A stretch of 64,000 nucleotides of DNA from Pseudodesulfovibrio portus (lineage in GTDB: Bacteria > Desulfobacterota > Desulfovibrionia > Desulfovibrionales > Desulfovibrionaceae): contig NZ_AP026708.1 in NCBI RefSeq assembly GCF_026000375.1, positions 2,110,501 to 2,174,500 of the forward strand. The letters are read 5' to 3'. The notes below the pieces were generated by a model. The model was not told the DNA's origin, searched no databases, and was given only the letters and a program-made list of their open reading frames with translations. This document shows positions 5,352 through 41,731 of the stretch, piece after piece. The number at the start of each line of letters is the position of its first letter. Position 1 is the stretch's first letter. Both the position numbers and the translations under genes were made by a program.

Positions 5352-6509
5352 ATGCCTGATGAATACAGAAAGCGGAGTATGTACCTCTTCCTGCTGGTGC
5401 TGGTGGTGGGCTCGTGCGTCGGCTTCCAGGGGTGGCGCACCCTGCTCAACAACTTTGCCGTGGAAGAGGTCGGCCTGGACGGGTTGGGCATGGGCATCGT
5501 CCAGTCCGTGCGCGAGGTGCCGGGCTTCCTGACCCTGCTGGCCATCTACGTCATCCTGATCCTCCGCGAGCACAGGCTGGCCGCCCTGAGCGTGGTCATC
5601 ATGGGCATGGGCGTGGCCCTGGCAGGGCTGTTGCCCACGCTCTCCGGCCTGGTCTTCACCACCCTGGTCATGAGCTTCGGGTTCCACTACTTCGAGGCCA
5701 TGAACCAGTCCCTGACCCTCCAGTATTTCGACCACGCCGAAGCGCCGCTGGTCTTCGGCAGGATGCGTTCCGTCAACGCCCTGGCCAACGTCATGGTGGG
5801 CGGGGCCATCTATGTCATGGCCAAGTTCATGGGATACGCGGAGATGCTGGCCGTCCTGGGCGGCGTGGCCGTGGCCGCCGGGCTGTGGGCCCTGACCCGG
5901 GACCCCTCTCGACAGGACCTGCCGCCCCAGCGCAAGGCCATGAGCCTGAAGGGGAAGTACTGGCTCTTTTACGGATTGACCTTCCTGGGCGGTGCCAGGA
6001 GGCAGATATTCGTGGCCTTCGCGGTCTTCCTGCTGGTCAAGAAGTTCGGCTTCACCATCCAGCACGTCACCATCCTGTTCGTGGTCAACAACGTGCTCAA
6101 CTATTTCATCAGCCCGTATATCGGCAGGTCCATCAACCGGTACGGCGAGCGCTGGGTCCTGAGCCTGGAGTACGCCACCCTGGCTTTCGTCTTCCTGGGA
6201 TACGCCTACACGGAAAGCGGCATGGTGGCGGCCCTGCTCTACGTGGCGGACAACATCTTTTTCAATTTCTCCATGGGTATCAGGACGTTCTACCAGAAGA
6301 TAGCGGATCCGCGCGACATCGCCTCTGGCATGACCATGGGGTCCACCATCAACCACATCGCGGCGGTGGTGGTCCCGGTGATGGGGGGGCTGGTCTGGAT
6401 CAGCAACTACCAGGCGGTCTTCCTGGCGGCCGCGGGCATGAGTCTGGTTTCCCTGGCCCTGGCTCAGATGATCCCCGGACAACTGGAAAAAAGGCAACAA
6501 CAAGGTTGA
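5352..6509 (+). CDS. MFS transporter
   Basis: A 385-residue polytopic membrane protein with about twelve hydrophobic segments in two six-helix halves, typical of the major facilitator superfamily. The cytoplasmic loop after helix 2 contains ILREHRLAAL; the central loop near residues 180-200 is basic and hydrophilic (RDPSRQDLPPQRKAM). The ATG is preceded by AAGGAAAC. The substrate cannot be deduced. The stop lies just before the CheD region, and co-transcription with cheD is possible, though the functions are not obviously linked. Confidence 0.88.
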   Translation: MPDEYRKRSMYLFLLVLVVGSCVGFQGWRTLLNNFAVEEVGLDGLGMGIVQSVREVPGFLTLLAIYVILILREHRLAALSVVIMGMGVALAGLLPTLSGLVFTTLVMSFGFHYFEAMNQSLTLQYFDHAEAPLVFGRMRSVNALANVMVGGAIYVMAKFMGYAEMLAVLGGVAVAAGLWALTRDPSRQDLPPQRKAMSLKGKYWLFYGLTFLGGARRQIFVAFAVFLLVKKFGFTIQHVTILFVVNNVLNYFISPYIGRSINRYGERWVLSLEYATLAFVFLGYAYTESGMVAALLYVADNIFFNFSMGIRTFYQKIADPRDIASGMTMGSTINHIAAVVVPVMGGLVWISNYQAVFLAAAGMSLVSLALAQMIPGQLEKRQQQG

Positions 6510-6582: not shown

Positions 6583-7089
6583 ATGAAAGGATTGTACCAG
6601 GACCTCCCCAAGATATTTCTGCAGACGGGCGACTGTTTCATAGGCGTTCAGCCGACCATGGTCACCACCGTGCTCGGGTCGTGCCTGGGGGTGACCATGC
6701 ACGTCCCGAAAATGGGCATCGGCACCATCTGCCACGCCTTCCTTCCGGACAGTTCCGACTGCAGGGCCTCCCTCGTCCCGGAGCCCCAGATTTGCCGGTT
6801 TGTTGACACGGCCCTGCAAAACATGCTGGAAACCATGGACAAGATAGGCGTTCCCCGGCGGGAACTGGTCATCAAGATGTTCGGCGGGTCGTCCGGCATG
6901 GCCGTGCGCAACGTGGAGAACACCACCTATGACATCGGCAGGCGGAACATCGCCATGGCCAGGAAGCTGCTCAAGTTCGCCCGCCTGGACATCCAGGTGG
7001 AGGATGTGGGCGGACAACGGGGACGCAAGCTGTTGTTCAACACCCAGACCGGCGAGGTGTGGGTCAAGAAGCTGCGCGAGCCCCTGTAG
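6583..7089 (+). CDS. cheD: chemotaxis protein CheD
   Basis: A CheD receptor glutamine deamidase, which modifies chemoreceptors and in many bacteria works with CheC or CheY. The family signatures are present: IFLQTGDCFIGVQP, the catalytic cysteine block VLGSCLGVTMH, the histidine block ICHAFLPDS and MFGGSSGM. The ATG at 6583 places the conserved region about ten residues from the start, as in other CheD proteins; an in-frame TTG at 6511, just after the MFS stop, is an alternative that would add 24 residues. No cheA, cheW or receptor gene is nearby, so it is an isolated chemotaxis gene. Confidence 0.9.
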   Translation: MKGLYQDLPKIFLQTGDCFIGVQPTMVTTVLGSCLGVTMHVPKMGIGTICHAFLPDSSDCRASLVPEPQICRFVDTALQNMLETMDKIGVPRRELVIKMFGGSSGMAVRNVENTTYDIGRRNIAMARKLLKFARLDIQVEDVGGQRGRKLLFNTQTGEVWVKKLREPL

Positions 7090-7118
7090 GTAATTTTCAA
7101 CAGAACGGGGAACAGATC

Positions 7119-7916
7119 ATGATCTCATTTTCCAGACGACTCCGGCTCCTTCTCCCCGCCCTCGGGTTGGCCCTGTTCCTGGCCGCGCCCTCGCTGGCCG
7201 GGGACGCGGTTTTCCAGTATTCGACCATCGACGCCCTCCTGGCCGGGTTGTACGAAGGGGACATGACCATGGCCGAGTTGGCGCGCAAGGGCGATTTCGG
7301 CCTCGGCACGCTCAACGGCATCGACGGAGAGCTGGTGGTGCTCGACGGCGTGGGCTACCACGTGTCAGCCGGGGGCGCGGCCGTTGTCGCCCCGGGCGCG
7401 GCGGCCATTCCCTTTGCCACGGTCTCCTTTTTCGGCGGCGACCGGACCCTGGACCTGGGGACCATCGACTCCCTGGCGGCGTTGAACGAGGCCGTGGTCG
7501 CGGGGCTGCCGTCCAAGAACGTGTTCTGGGCCATCCGCATCGACGGCGTGTTCCCGTCGGTCAAGGCGCGGGCCATCCCAAAGCAGAGCCCCCCCTATGA
7601 CCCCCTGGCCGAGGTGGCCAAGCAGCAGGTCGTCGTCACCCTCTCCGGCGAGGGGACCCTGGTGGGCTATTATTCGCCGCCGTTCGTCAAGGGCGTGAAC
7701 GTGCCCGGCTTCCACTGGCATTTCCTGACCGCCGACCGGGCCAGGGGCGGCCACGTCCTGGACTGCTCCCTCAATCCGACAACGGCCCTGCTGGACGAGC
7801 TGCGGACCCTGACGGTCCGGTTGCCCGCTTCCGCCGAATTCGACGGGCTGGACCTGTCCGGCGACAAGACCGGGGAACTGCACGCCGTGGAAAAGGGCCC
7901 GGCAAAAGGCGAGTAG
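7119..7916 (+). CDS. budA: exported acetolactate decarboxylase
   Basis: A 265-residue alpha-acetolactate decarboxylase, which converts acetolactate to acetoin. Family blocks are clear: YSTIDALLAGLYEGDMTMAEL, DFGLGTLNGIDGELVVLDG, and the zinc-binding region PGFHWHFLTADRARGGHVLD with three histidines. An N-terminal signal peptide (basic start, then LLLPALGLALFLAAPSLAG) predicts export. The chosen ATG follows ACGGGGAACAG and starts at the signal peptide. No acetolactate synthase or acetoin dehydrogenase gene is adjacent; cheD lies upstream and an Hpt gene 4 bases downstream. Why a sulfate-reducer-like cell would export this enzyme is unclear. Confidence 0.88.
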   Translation: MISFSRRLRLLLPALGLALFLAAPSLAGDAVFQYSTIDALLAGLYEGDMTMAELARKGDFGLGTLNGIDGELVVLDGVGYHVSAGGAAVVAPGAAAIPFATVSFFGGDRTLDLGTIDSLAALNEAVVAGLPSKNVFWAIRIDGVFPSVKARAIPKQSPPYDPLAEVAKQQVVVTLSGEGTLVGYYSPPFVKGVNVPGFHWHFLTADRARGGHVLDCSLNPTTALLDELRTLTVRLPASAEFDGLDLSGDKTGELHAVEKGPAKGE

Positions 7917-28113: not shown

Positions 28114-29097
28114 ATGTTTCGATTTTACGGTCTGTCCGCCTTCATGCGCCACCATTTCGGCAAACGGGTCAGGAAAATCCCCCTGGACGCGGGTTTTTCC
28201 TGTCCCAACCGGGACGGCTCCCTGTCCTCCGAGGGGTGCGTTTTCTGCAACCCGGCGGGGTCGGGATCAGGGTTGGGCACGAGGGGCCTGTCAATACCCG
28301 AACAGTGGGATTTCTGGCGTGACATTCACGTGAAAAAACAGGGGATCGATCAATTCACAGGTTACCTCCAGTCCTATTCCAACACACACGGTCCCATCGA
28401 AAAGCTGGCTGCGATTCTCAAGGAAATGCGCGGACTGCCCGGCATGGCCAGCCTGGCGCTGGGCACCCGCCCCGACTGCCTGGATGCGGCCAAGCTCGAT
28501 CTGCTGGCCGACCAGAAGGAAGCCCTTGGCCTGGACGCGGTTTTCCTGGAGCTGGGGCTGCAATCCGCTGACGACGCCACGCTCAGGCATATCAACCGGG
28601 GTCACGACGTCGCCAGTTTTGCCGAGGCTGCCGAAGCCGCCGCCGAACGCGGCCTGCTGGTCGTGGCCCACGTCATGGCCGGGCTGCCCTCGCCGGACGG
28701 ACGGGAGGGGGAGGCCGAACTGCTGGCCACCGTGGAGTTCCTCAACCGGCTGCCCGTGCACGGCATCAAGTTCCACAACGTGTACGTGTGCCGGGGAACG
28801 AGGCTGGCCCGCTGGCTCGAGGAGGGGCGGTACGCGCCGCCCACCCTGGACGAGTACCTCGCCTGGCTGTCGGCGGCCCTCATGCGCCTTGATCCGCGCA
28901 TCGTTGTCCACCGCCTCAACGGCAACCCGGCCCAGGGAGAGCTGTTGGCCCCCGACTGGGCGGCCAACATGCGGCGGCTGCACAACCTGGTGCGCGAGCA
29001 TTTCAACAGGTACGACGTGTGGCAGGGCAGGGGAAACGGGGCCGAGGACGGCCCGGCCCCTTGGTTTGATCCGAATCACGAGGGAGGAGAGTCATGA
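28114..29097 (+). CDS. TIGR01212/YhcC family radical SAM protein
   Basis: A 327-residue radical SAM protein. The cluster-binding cysteines are in CPNRDGSLSSEGCVFC, the wide C-x12-C-x2-C spacing of the YhcC/TIGR01212 family rather than CxxxCxxC. Further family blocks include QSYSNTHGP, LGTRPDCLD and HVMAGLPSP. The reaction is not established for this family. The ATG has an A-rich leader (CTAAATAAAA) without a clear ribosome site. It overlaps the following methyltransferase gene by 4 bases. Confidence 0.9.
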   Translation: MFRFYGLSAFMRHHFGKRVRKIPLDAGFSCPNRDGSLSSEGCVFCNPAGSGSGLGTRGLSIPEQWDFWRDIHVKKQGIDQFTGYLQSYSNTHGPIEKLAAILKEMRGLPGMASLALGTRPDCLDAAKLDLLADQKEALGLDAVFLELGLQSADDATLRHINRGHDVASFAEAAEAAAERGLLVVAHVMAGLPSPDGREGEAELLATVEFLNRLPVHGIKFHNVYVCRGTRLARWLEEGRYAPPTLDEYLAWLSAALMRLDPRIVVHRLNGNPAQGELLAPDWAANMRRLHNLVREHFNRYDVWQGRGNGAEDGPAPWFDPNHEGGES

Positions 29098-38726: not shown

Positions 38727-39217
38727 GGAGAGCGAGGGTATGGCAAAGGACCGGGGAAGGCAATGGTGAGTGTCGCTTTGGGGTGCGCGGCATTGACAGT
38801 TTGTCGATCAACTCCCTTTCGTATCTCAGATGGACGCTTTTGTGCAAAGGAGTGGTGTGTATTTGGGGTGTACTCTAGGTGGACCTTACGTGTGATAGAA
38901 ACAAACTCGACTCAGGCTCTAAAAAGGCCAGAGCTACAATCAGAGGATTTCTAAATCGAAAAACTGAGTATGCATCAGACATACCAACGAAAATGCGACT
39001 ATTGGGCTTGACAACCAGTTAACCTAACACAGTAAAGGGGTTGTAGGAGGCCGGGGAAAAATCACAATTTTAATGGGTATTTATCTGTGGAATACGTGCG
39101 ATAGTTTGTTTCATTATGGAACTCGCTGTTTAAACTGGCGATTTTCAGAACTCATTGATTTTATTGAAAGCCTCCACACGACTTTTATGTCGAAAACTAA
39201 CCCAACTGATATACATA
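38727..39217. other. AT-rich gap left of the insertion sequence
   Basis: About 490 bases, clearly richer in A and T than the surrounding genes. A frame of 63 codons at 38763-38954 has no convincing ribosome site. A frame starting at 39073 runs in frame through the IS target site and, with the IS removed, would continue for about 14 more codons; it may be a small gene split by the insertion, but its ribosome site is weak (AGGAGG lies too far upstream, near 39045). A TTGACA hexamer is present near 39008. I see no recognisable gene. Confidence 0.4.
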
Positions 39218-39225
39218 ATATTTTT
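39218..39225. repeat. 8-bp target site duplication, left
   Basis: ATATTTTT directly precedes the left IS end and is repeated exactly at 39933-39940 after the right end. Confidence 0.95.
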
Positions 39226-39932
39226 GGGGCTGTACCAGATAACTCCGTTGGGGTATCGGTATGGCAATGCGAAAGAGCCGTTTAGGTCGCGAGAAGCAGC
39301 TCCGTTTGATTGAGCATTTTGTAGCCGGGACAACAGCACGATGTGCCGCTGATCTGGTCGGCGTGAACTTCAAAACGGCTGCGTATTACTTTCACCGGAT
39401 TCGTGAAATTATAGCCGAAGAAGAGGCCAACGAAGGAATGGCTTTCGGCGAATTTGAAGTCGATGAAAGCTATTTCGGCGGCAGGCGAAAGGGCAAACGA
39501 GGTCGTGGGGCCGCAGGGAAAGTGCCCGTGTTCGGGATCCTTAAAAGGGGCGGGAAGGTACACACACAGGTGATTCCCGACGCCAAAGGCAAAACGCTGA
39601 TGCCGATTATCCAGGAGAAGATCCAGCCCGACAGCGTTGTTTACTCAGATTGCTGGTACGGCTACAATGTCCTCGATGTGTCCGAATTCAAGCACTTCAG
39701 GATCAACCACTCCAAGTTGTTCGCCGACAGCCAGAATCACATCAATGGGATTGAGAACTTTTGGAACCAAGCCAAACGCCACATGAGAAAATTCAACGGC
39801 ATTCCTACCAAGCATTTCCATCTCTTTTTGAAGGAATGCGAGTGGCGCTTTAACAACAGCAATCCGCGAAGGCAACTTAAACAGTTGAAACAGTGGGTTA
39901 AGAAGCATATGGGCTAGTTATCTGGTACAGCC
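39226..39932 (+). mobile_element. complete IS1595-family insertion sequence
   Basis: A 707-base element with perfect 19-base terminal inverted repeats: GGGGCTGTACCAGATAACT at 39226-39244 and its complement at 39914-39932. It carries one transposase gene with no visible damage. An 8-base target duplication (ATATTTTT) flanks it, the length expected for IS1595 elements. The perfect ends and duplication imply a recent insertion, and the element could still be mobile. The right end contains the last codons of the transposase. Confidence 0.95.
39261..39917 (+). CDS. IS1595 family transposase
   Basis: A 218-residue transposase that probably moves the element by cut-and-paste. An N-terminal helical DNA-binding region (GREKQLRLIEHFVAG) precedes the DDE-type core of the ISXO2-like domain: EFEVDESYFGGRRKGKRG with the first Asp, VVYSDCWYGYN with the second, and NHINGIENFWNQAKRHM with the final acidic region. 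The C-terminus KECEWRFNNS is the family ending. The ATG is 17 bases inside the left inverted repeat, and the stop falls in the right one. Confidence 0.95.
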   Translation: MAMRKSRLGREKQLRLIEHFVAGTTARCAADLVGVNFKTAAYYFHRIREIIAEEEANEGMAFGEFEVDESYFGGRRKGKRGRGAAGKVPVFGILKRGGKVHTQVIPDAKGKTLMPIIQEKIQPDSVVYSDCWYGYNVLDVSEFKHFRINHSKLFADSQNHINGIENFWNQAKRHMRKFNGIPTKHFHLFLKECEWRFNNSNPRRQLKQLKQWVKKHMG

Positions 39933-39940
39933 CCATATTT
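39933..39940. repeat. 8-bp target site duplication, right
   Basis: ATATTTTT directly follows the right IS end and matches 39218-39225 exactly. Confidence 0.95.
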
Positions 39941-39999
39941 TTTTCTCAACTTTATCTAGCAAAATTTTAAAGAAAACACGATGATAGTATTTTTATACA

Positions 40000-40116: not shown

Positions 40117-40153
40117 TAAAAGAAAAAGGCCATGAAGCTGCAACTCCATGGCC
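40117..40153 (-). terminator. minus-strand intrinsic terminator with no gene in front
   Basis: On the minus strand GGCCATG pairs with CATGGCC (40153-40147 and 40134-40128) and is followed by TTTTTCTTTT. No minus-strand gene ends just upstream of it; the nearest minus-strand stop is at 41760, beyond two plus-strand genes. It may end a small RNA or antisense transcript of the region 40154-40480. Confidence 0.6.
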
Positions 40154-40298
40154 CTCTGGGTGGACTTTCTATGCTAGGTGGGTCCACCTACACGATCAAC
40201 CCCTACTGGCGTAGGCCTTGAATGTGTATGTACATCCTCACACTACCACGCCAGAAAAGTCGATACAAGAGAAAATAGCGCCTAGCATGGAGGTCTAA

Positions 40299-40415
40299 GT
40301 GACCGAAGATTATACCATTATCTTCAGACCTTGGATTCGCCATCCCAAGACGGGGGAAAAAATTTATCCCCGGAAAGGGAAGGTTTTCCCGATCAAAGTG
40401 AAGAAGTCGAAATAA
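40299..40415 (+). CDS. 38-residue basic protein in the AT-rich island
   Basis: A GTG start at 40299 follows GGAGG at 6-base spacing. The product begins MTEDYTIIFRPWIRHPKTG, continues with EKIYPRKGKVFPIKVKKSK and then stops: 38 residues, strongly basic, with Trp, Tyr and Phe at regular positions. The pattern of an aromatic FRPW-type opening, a Lys-Thr-Gly turn and a basic IYPRKGK end resembles very short proteins I recall from phage and integrative elements; no function is known. It precedes the small gene at 40489 by 73 bases. The first half of the coding region can also fold into a hairpin (40292-40330). Confidence 0.6.
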   Translation: MTEDYTIIFRPWIRHPKTGEKIYPRKGKVFPIKVKKSK

Positions 40416-40458
40416 CTTCTTCGTGACAAATGGGAAGGGCATAAGGCCTGCCCTTCCC
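40400..40458 (+). promoter_or_regulatory. two tandem hairpins between the small island genes
   Basis: GAAGAAGT/ACTTCTTC (40400-40407 with 40415-40422) overlaps the stop of the 38-residue gene. GGGAAGGGCA/TGCCCTTCCC (40432-40441 with 40449-40458) is a perfect 10-base stem with a 7-base loop in the leader of the next gene. Neither is followed by a T tract, so they are more likely RNA stability or control elements than terminators. Confidence 0.5.
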
Positions 40459-40488
40459 TCTCTTGAACCTCAAAGAAAGGACTTTATC

Positions 40489-40704
40489 ATGGCTAATCAC
40501 ATCAAAGGCAATCGCGACGGCGAAAATGGACGAAACGAATCCTACCGAATCCCCGGCAGAAGTTCTTCCATCGACCGAGACACGCTTGTTCGTGAAGTTG
40601 AGGCAGGCAAACACCCAGACTTTGGGACATACACTCGCAATGGCGAGACCTACGTTAGAGCAAACCCCGACTATACTGAAAGCAACAGCGTAAACAACGA
40701 GTAA
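40489..40704 (+). CDS. small hydrophilic protein, possibly DUF3892-like
   Basis: A 71-residue soluble protein beginning MANHIKGNRDGENGRNESYR, with the segment DTLVREVEAGKHPDFGTYTR and an Asn-rich end. The layout (short N-terminal strand, a V-x-x-V-E-A-G-K helix, a strand pair) is loosely like DUF3892 proteins, but I am not sure. An AAAGAAAGG site lies 9 bases before the ATG. Base composition is nearer to the AT-rich island than to the core genome, suggesting it arrived with the island. It is followed by a GGCTCCG/CGGAGCC hairpin at 40713-40734. Confidence 0.6.
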   Translation: MANHIKGNRDGENGRNESYRIPGRSSSIDRDTLVREVEAGKHPDFGTYTRNGETYVRANPDYTESNSVNNE

Positions 40705-40933
40705 CCCTCAATGGCTCCGGGGCAACTCGGAGCCAACTTCAGTAGGAAGTGTGGCCTTAATTTCACCACGCAATCCGATCACGAGATTACTCAACCGCAT
40801 CCCGTTTACTGGATTGTGGTTTGATTGGTTTGCATGCACCGGCCCACGAAAATGGCTTGCAGGGATCGCACTCGGCGCCTGTACCTGTCGGCCCGTCCCA
40901 CAAATATATCTTGTAAAGTTTTCCGGCGCGGGT

Positions 40934-41731
40934 ATGCTTTTTGGCATGGGACCTTGCCTGAAATTCAAAGCGCGACTGGCCTTGTCGGTGTGCGCTCTTG
41001 GTTGCGCCTTTTTGATGATGGCCTGCCCTCTTCCCTCTCGCGCCGAAGAACAATTCGTTTCCGTCTGGTCCTACTACTGCTTCCCTCCTTTCGTCACATC
41101 AAAGAACCAGGGCTTGTCTCATGAGTTGATTGAATTGCTGAACGCAAGAGGTCAGGGCCGGTTCAGGTTCGAGCTGCGGCTGCTGCCCAGAAAGCGAATC
41201 GATTTGCTCCTCTCGGACGGCATTACGGGCCTCGTTCTCTTTGTTAATCCGTCATGGATGGGGCTCAGGAATCTGCAAAAATACGAATGGACCCCTTCGC
41301 TCTTCTCGGACAGGAACGTTATCGTCTCGAATGTATCCAGGAAGGTTGATTTCACCGGGCCGGAGTCTCTTGTCGGACTGACGTTGGGAGGGATTATCGG
41401 GCGTAAATACGAGGCCCTGGATGAACTGGTCGACGCAGGTTTGATCAAGAGAGACGACACAACCAGTGAAAAGTCAAACCTGCTGAAGCTCTGCGAGAAA
41501 CGCATTGATTTCACGACAGGCCCGGAGACCATGCTGCGGCCGCTGGTGGCAAGTCTCTGTATTGATGGCCAAATCTATTTTTCCCCAACCCCGCTTTTCC
41601 AATACACCAGACACATTCTCATCTCAGATGCGTCGCCCGCGCTTTCCGAATTCATCGTGCAATTTGTCAGGGAGCTTCCGGCGAATCCCAAATGGATCGC
41701 CATCAAGGACAAGTACAAATTGCGTGACTGA
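40934..41731 (+). CDS. periplasmic substrate-binding protein (SBP family 3 type)
   Basis: A 265-residue exported protein. A signal peptide (ALSVCALGCAFLMMACPLPSRA) precedes a two-lobed binding-protein layout with VSVWSYYCFPPFVTSKNQG near the N-terminus, LPRKRIDLLLSDGITGLVLFV in the middle and LSEFIVQFVRELPANPKW near the end. This matches the solute-binding protein family 3 outline, although identity to amino-acid-binding proteins looks low. No permease or ATPase gene is near, so it may act as a sensor or be an orphan. Start 40934 or 40946 is possible. It is the first core-like gene after the AT-rich island. Confidence 0.72.
   Translation: MLFGMGPCLKFKARLALSVCALGCAFLMMACPLPSRAEEQFVSVWSYYCFPPFVTSKNQGLSHELIELLNARGQGRFRFELRLLPRKRIDLLLSDGITGLVLFVNPSWMGLRNLQKYEWTPSLFSDRNVIVSNVSRKVDFTGPESLVGLTLGGIIGRKYEALDELVDAGLIKRDDTTSEKSNLLKLCEKRIDFTTGPETMLRPLVASLCIDGQIYFSPTPLFQYTRHILISDASPALSEFIVQFVRELPANPKWIAIKDKYKLRD

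Follow-up and report, generated by a model that had tools for sequence, protein, structure and literature searches.

The locus lies in an AT-rich island within a 64,000-nucleotide stretch of the Pseudodesulfovibrio portus genome (NZ_AP026708.1, forward-strand positions 2,110,501 to 2,174,500; the whole stretch analysed is hereafter called the window). It contains two small plus-strand genes of 38 and 71 codons, an insertion element upstream of them and, on the minus strand, a structured region that may encode a small RNA. Numbered from the first letter of the window, the features are:

39218-39225 and 39935-39942: 8-bp target duplication ATATTTTT of the IS1595 element
39226-39934, plus strand: IS1595-family insertion with perfect ends, upstream of the 38-codon gene; transposase at 39261-39917
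40118-40235, minus strand: putative small RNA with three hairpins, placed head-to-head with the 38-codon gene (fold z-score, position)
40124-40157, minus strand: intrinsic terminator of the putative RNA, with U tract, pointing away from the microprotein gene (terminator scan)
40240-40268, minus strand: weak promoter-like boxes TTGTAT-17-TAGTGT, the second weak (by eye; not in the scan output)
40289-40293, plus strand: GGAGG ribosome-binding site, 5 nt ahead of GTG 40299 (read from the sequence)
40299-40415, plus strand: microprotein gene of 38 codons with GTG start, encoding a cysteine-free member of the IFRP...F.I.V family (ORF list, relatives, alignment, codon-position test)
40400-40422, plus strand: perfect 8-bp hairpin over the stop codon of the 38-codon gene (sequence reading)
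40432-40458, plus strand: G+C-rich hairpin with a perfect 10-bp stem, resembling a terminator except for its poor T tract; not in the terminator scan output
40489-40704, plus strand: DUF3892 gene of 71 codons, without consistent link to the microprotein (Pfam, relatives, alignment)
40712-40735, plus strand: hairpin 3' of the DUF3892 gene

The IS1595 element sits inside the island, and if its flanks are joined, a frame of about 60 codons runs through the insertion site. The gene that follows the island (40751-41731) gives no Pfam match at E 1, resembles a periplasmic binding protein by eye and is variable: a search of 35 other genomes of the genus found it in 4.

As a TAA codon stands directly ahead of GTG 40299, this GTG is the only start available to the 38-codon frame; the 71-codon frame has a ribosome-binding site of its own, AAGGA. 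Both genes are AT-rich relative to their surroundings, with G+C contents of 0.436 (38 codons) and 0.500 (71 codons) against 0.645 for recQ. Homologue searches of the kind proposed in the initial annotation found relatives for both frames, and these permit comparison by codon position. For the 38-aa frame, identities at positions 1/2/3 were 0.78/0.67/0.39 with genome G321, 0.63/0.69/0.31 with genome G571, 0.68/0.65/0.26 with viral contig L107 and 0.61/0.53/0.31 with a Salmonella element, and for the 71-aa frame 0.67/0.80/0.33 with a Pseudomonas relative and 0.68/0.76/0.50 with one from Photobacterium. The third position is thus the least conserved in both frames, indicating coding conservation in each, and judged by these comparisons the two frames are real genes.

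The initial annotation had given the coordinates and lengths of both frames correctly, together with the textbook GGAGG site, and had further proposed a structured leader, a claim that stands only in part. The linker between the genes, which carries two perfect hairpins, folds at -28.3 kcal/mol (z -4.26), with none of 300 shuffles as good; the start-codon hairpin of the 38-codon gene exists, but at -12.1 kcal/mol (z -1.48) it was equalled by 23 of 300 shuffles and does not rise above chance. Moreover, since a hairpin lies just 3' of the stop in six of eight microprotein relatives (sequences read by eye), the linker hairpins fit the end of the first transcript better than a leader. Fold z-scores for the 70 bases after the microprotein stop were -1.6 in the window, -2.6 in G321, -0.5 in G571, -3.1 in L107, -6.7 and -3.9 in two Klebsiella phages, -2.1 in the Salmonella element, and 0.9 and -4.7 in genomes G1090 and G1104, respectively. 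By eye, an intrinsic terminator follows the stop in G321, both Klebsiella phages, the Salmonella element and G1104; the post-stop hairpin of G571, like that of the window, has no T tract.

The 71-codon gene encodes a protein that matches Pfam family PF13031 (DUF3892) narrowly, at 22.4 bits against a cut-off of 22.3 (21.1 bits, below the cut-off, when the genome frame is searched), and that shares the 13 columns invariant across an alignment of 42 sequences of its subfamily. By these alignments it is a stand-alone member of a known but uncharacterised family. Six plasmid records, all annotated DUF3892, match it at identities of up to 63%, and relatives occur at 60 loci in the genome collection and four in viral contigs. 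A search of 97 other genomes of the order (E 0.001) gave no match, so that acquisition is probable. The DUF3892 fold has been likened to those of dsRNA-binding domains and hibernation factors; the predicted structure of the window protein (pLDDT 72.3) gave no Foldseek match at E <= 0.001 and no solved structure with Z >= 2. DUF3892 domains fused to Min-Wnt domains have been proposed to sense RNA or ribosomes (PMC12419801); the window protein resembles the family in its above-cut-off match and common motifs and differs from that fusion in standing alone. The stand-alone protein may bind RNA or ribosomes.

The neighbours of DUF3892 genes elsewhere vary. In four alphaproteobacterial loci (L006, L008, L009 and L038) the gene lies directly behind an XRE-ImmA gene, and in L006, the one locus tested, the pair matches RosmerTA, strongly for RmrA and weakly for RmrT. 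Five of ten hand-picked neighbours match a PADLOC model, i.e. a type IIG restriction enzyme, a CBASS cyclase, an AAA ATPase, an SNF2 helicase and a luciferase-like enzyme. A DUF3892-like gene is also seen directly ahead of a CBASS-type cyclase gene at L030:2932-4257.

The two genes had been described in the initial annotation as a plausible undescribed small module, with reference to phage-derived and toxin-antitoxin-like cassettes and with the suggestion that their co-occurrence be checked in other genomes. A profile of the 38-aa family (nine sequences) gave nothing convincing against 70 DUF3892 loci (best E 0.77), and phmmer with the 38-aa protein and filters off reached a best E of 0.24 in the same loci, in a stretch of a long frame. 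In the other direction, a DUF3892 profile gave nothing at E <= 1 in 63 loci carrying the 38-aa family, the control recovering 69 of the 70 DUF3892 loci. A 72-aa neighbour of the microprotein in G1090 was considered and found to be unrelated to DUF3892. In the loci examined the two families thus do not co-occur by profile comparison, either way, and the genes are probably not a fixed pair. A small toxin-antitoxin pair would suit their adjacency and their charges, the 38-aa protein being basic (11 K/R, 3 D/E) and the 71-aa protein slightly acidic (10 K/R, 12 D/E); nevertheless, the absence of co-occurrence, the terminator-like hairpin between the genes and the lack of a PADLOC match for either protein make this reading very improbable, and the 71-aa gene belongs to a known family. 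What survives of the proposed module is that the genes are real and that the 38-aa family is phage-associated and nameless in the libraries searched.

The 38-aa protein has no match in Pfam, NCBIfam or PADLOC, and three tested relatives likewise gave no PADLOC match. Against PHROGs it shows a weak, partial match to phrog_30400 (E 0.0014), and its L107 relative matches phrog_4533 (E 6.4e-6); a search with phrog_30400 across 369 genomes gave no match, but neither did its controls. The protein has no counterpart at E 0.01 among 97 other genomes of the order and, used as a query against plasmids and phages, gave no match; judged by this sample of 97, both genes are probably foreign to the lineage. 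Relatives were found in G321 (E 1.2e-5; the one accepted of two matching genomes among 369, class of G101, E 0.02) and, with a two-row profile that matched 10 of 297 genomes of the window's phylum at E 0.05, in G571 (E 9.4e-10), accepted there along with the window's own genome. G1090 and G1104 were the two accepted of six matching genomes among 365 (E 0.01), and further relatives came from viral contig L107, the two Klebsiella phages and the Salmonella element. Matches in L075-L081, L083, L097-L099, L100-L104, L109, L110 and L123-L126 were rejected on their reading frames, L100 and L104 containing short motif-like fragments, and eleven viral stretches from one search of the family were mostly longer unrelated proteins or short fragments. 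Contig L107 also carries a reverse-transcriptase-like gene (6752-7744; RVT_1, just below the cut-off), and the G1090 contig, at L127:1267-1452 and 5965-6065, matches to C4 antisense RNA, isrK and RNAI.

The alignment of nine sequences defines a common core, IFRP[WY]...G...F.I.V, which the window protein carries within a size of under about 50 aa. Klebsiella and Salmonella members have a CxxC ahead of the core and a CxC behind it; these cysteines are absent from the window, G321, G571, L107, G1090 and G1104, and CxxC...CxC is accordingly not defining for the whole family. From the spacing of their cysteines the former members look like a small zinc ribbon that would bind zinc, and a natural reading of the family would be a zinc ribbon whose metal site is missing from certain lines. 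Structure prediction for the 38-aa protein from two sequences (pLDDT 72.7, pTM 0.30) only suggests short strands. By motif and size, the window protein is an orphan, cysteine-free member of an undescribed microprotein family that occurs in phages and on mobile islands.

A DNA pattern for the CxxC...CxC form identified 70 viral loci, of which 54 encode the microprotein (30 distinct sequences); upstream sequence is available for 52 of these 54, and in 12 of the 54 the upstream region duplicates that of another row. XRE-ImmA/IrrE pairs act as control switches of mobile elements and turn up repeatedly in defence systems. An ImmA/IrrE match lies upstream of the microprotein on the same strand in 32 of the 52 loci, with XRE before ImmA in 27 of these, and its end sits at a near-constant 183-196 nt ahead of the CxxC codon; the remaining 20 have no upstream ImmA match. 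The same order occurs in L117, L119, G571 and G1104, both Klebsiella phages being among these, and was not seen in L107, the Salmonella element or G1090; the G321 contig starts at the microprotein gene.

Such surroundings suggest another reading, in which the microprotein would be accessory to phage-defence or toxin-antitoxin systems built on XRE-ImmA/IrrE, DUF3892 would sense RNA or ribosomes in the same setting, and the island would be what is left of a defence island. The G1104 microprotein does follow genes matching PD-Lambda-2 A and B, that of G321 adjoins TIR and HsdS genes, that of G1090 adjoins a candidate defence pair (PDC-M12), and the XRE-ImmA and PADLOC-matching neighbours of DUF3892 point in the same direction. 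Against this, PADLOC recognises neither window protein nor the three microprotein relatives, most relatives found sit in phage regulatory regions, and the DUF3892 neighbours were picked by hand, one of the five that match being the luciferase-like enzyme. Nor was any such system seen adjoining the window genes: tblastn with eleven XRE, ImmA and neighbour proteins found none near them, and there is no PD-Lambda-2 B match nearby. We therefore consider this reading unlikely. Weak XRE-like matches (E 0.001-0.002) occur at 28156-28449, far from both genes.

In 30 of 33 dereplicated viral upstream regions, an RNA gene of roughly 100 nt that closes with a terminator is predicted head-to-head with the microprotein; the other three (L138, L147 and L159) show no RNA gene and no obvious terminator. 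Three enterobacterial relatives have in common, on the opposite strand, promoter-like boxes with a spacing of 17, followed by two stems and then a terminator. The alignment of these regions (A10) leaves out L138, L147 and L159, as well as L160 and L193, which were dropped earlier for want of upstream sequence. RNAalifold found the terminator alone in A10 because stem 2 is misaligned there; stem 2 was consequently checked copy by copy, and the phage RNA model R1 contains terminator pairs only. Stem 2 has 24 distinct sequences in the 30 copies and pairs to 96% within a copy, compared with 50% between copies, in a test that picked the best hairpin per region and so favours pairing (the pick for L157 being poor).

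Model R1 scored 130 bits in L119, 110 in L117 and 83 in L120, which closely resemble its training members, so that these scores are not an independent test; L159 and L176 gave partial matches of 20 bits. With one RNA copy as the query, 56 of 5426 complete E. coli genomes matched, each at 60-80% identity, and in the single E. coli record opened a microprotein gene adjoins the RNA, without an annotated feature, and the two loops match again. Rfam has no match at the RNA place in L117, L119 or L120. We take conservation of the predicted RNA gene in phages as shown.

In 20 of the 30 copies the stem 2 region and the terminator have a common loop stretch of at least 7 nt (the other ten do not), against 70 of 846 cross pairs and 42 of 1500 shuffles, controls that ignore relatedness. 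An antisense copy of the twin loops is absent from 19 of the 20 sharing loci within about 1.8 kb upstream and 1.5 kb downstream, L190 providing the one antisense match. At L171:3362-3505 the common loop, TGTTGACGCA, is the reverse complement of the loop TGCGTCAACA of L162, L143 and others, as if the hairpins were inverted. Several of the repeated motifs show TG......CA symmetry and change together, and XRE genes are often near, as would be expected were they DNA operators for the XRE repressor and not features of an RNA. We judge this improbable, as the motifs occupy stem and terminator loops, most loci have no further copy close by, and the RNA gene likewise occurs at L135, L141, L142, L145, L173 and L178, for which the searches gave no XRE-ImmA.

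The layout of the window is like that of the phages, with three hairpins on the minus strand, the microprotein on the plus strand and a terminator-like hairpin after it, but in the window no XRE-ImmA pair lies nearby. The minus strand from 40235 to 40118 folds into three hairpins, the last being the terminator (z -5.31, 0 of 200 shuffles), compared with z -4.05 and -5.32 for two phage RNA copies; its first stem closes with UACAC/GUGUA, that of L117 with GUGUA/UACAC. A palindrome, TAGGTGGGTCCACCTA, lies at 40175-40190 within the putative RNA and has a 10-nt inverted match at 38876-38885, at the other island edge. Rfam gave nothing in the window at gathering threshold and two sub-threshold matches (E 0.73 and 0.76), and by eye no stretch is common to two of the window loops. 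The structure thus agrees with the phage RNA in position and layout, homology being unproven, and an RNA may be made from it.

It may equally be asked whether the structure is a mere terminator or folded leader without an RNA gene, beside a free-standing microprotein. The promoter boxes are weak, and the best match of R1 in the island reaches only 6.7 bits (rough E 0.021 in 2.3 kb), in the terminator part alone, a score that other terminators could attain; by eye, moreover, no such RNA is present in L107, G571 or G1104, and G1090 has a loose likeness at most. On the other side stand three consecutive hairpins with a strongly negative z-score, ending in a U-tract terminator that faces away from the gene, at the place where phages have the RNA. 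This reading retains a considerable probability, somewhat below even.

For the window, we regard as evenly balanced the explanation that two unrelated, probably horizontally acquired genes lie side by side in an AT-rich island, i.e. a phage-type microprotein, perhaps with its RNA, and a DUF3892 neighbour that would be next to it by chance. A broader proposal falls only marginally short of even: that a two-part phage module exists, comprising a zinc-ribbon-like microprotein and a head-to-head three-hairpin RNA in which the second and third hairpins often have identical loop stretches that change together; that it is common in enterobacterial prophages, can escape annotation and is often appended to XRE-ImmA/IrrE switches; and that the window holds a cysteine-free version in a distant phylum. 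We found no description of such a microprotein-RNA module in the open-licence literature. Mechanistically, and more tentatively, the microprotein might bind nucleic acids and either cooperate with or regulate the RNA made from the intergenic region that the two genes share, the two serving as an accessory of phage or mobile-element gene control; on its own, we hold this mechanism to be rather doubtful. If the proposal is true, the XRE-ImmA/IrrE switch would have components that have gone unnoticed, namely a microprotein and a structured RNA travelling with it, and the loop matches offer a target that can be tested directly. Genes under 50 codons escape annotation, as in the E. coli record above.

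Several known systems bear comparison. The functionally unannotated families phrog_30400 and phrog_4533 are, like the microprotein, short phage proteins; the window match is weak and partial, and no RNA partner is described in these libraries. PD-lambda-2 resembles the present arrangement in that the G1104 copy follows its A and B genes, and in that XRE-ImmA precedes the microprotein in many phages. PD-lambda-2 is described as including a third gene that is akin to an antitoxin of phage P4 (PMC9519451); the G1104 microprotein, by contrast, has no PADLOC match. AgvB/AsxR and C4 antisense RNA are phage-borne, terminator-ended short RNAs, as is the predicted phage RNA. The AgvB/AsxR class, however, measures 51-60 nt and is located downstream of moron genes, ahead of a phage ORF (PMC4104026), and differs from the phage RNA in length and place. 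C4 antisense RNA gives no match at the RNA place in L117, L119 and L120. Type I toxin-antitoxin systems place a small protein gene beside an RNA gene, and the likeness lies in that combination; here, however, the microprotein is basic and hydrophilic, and the RNA lies clear of the coding region.
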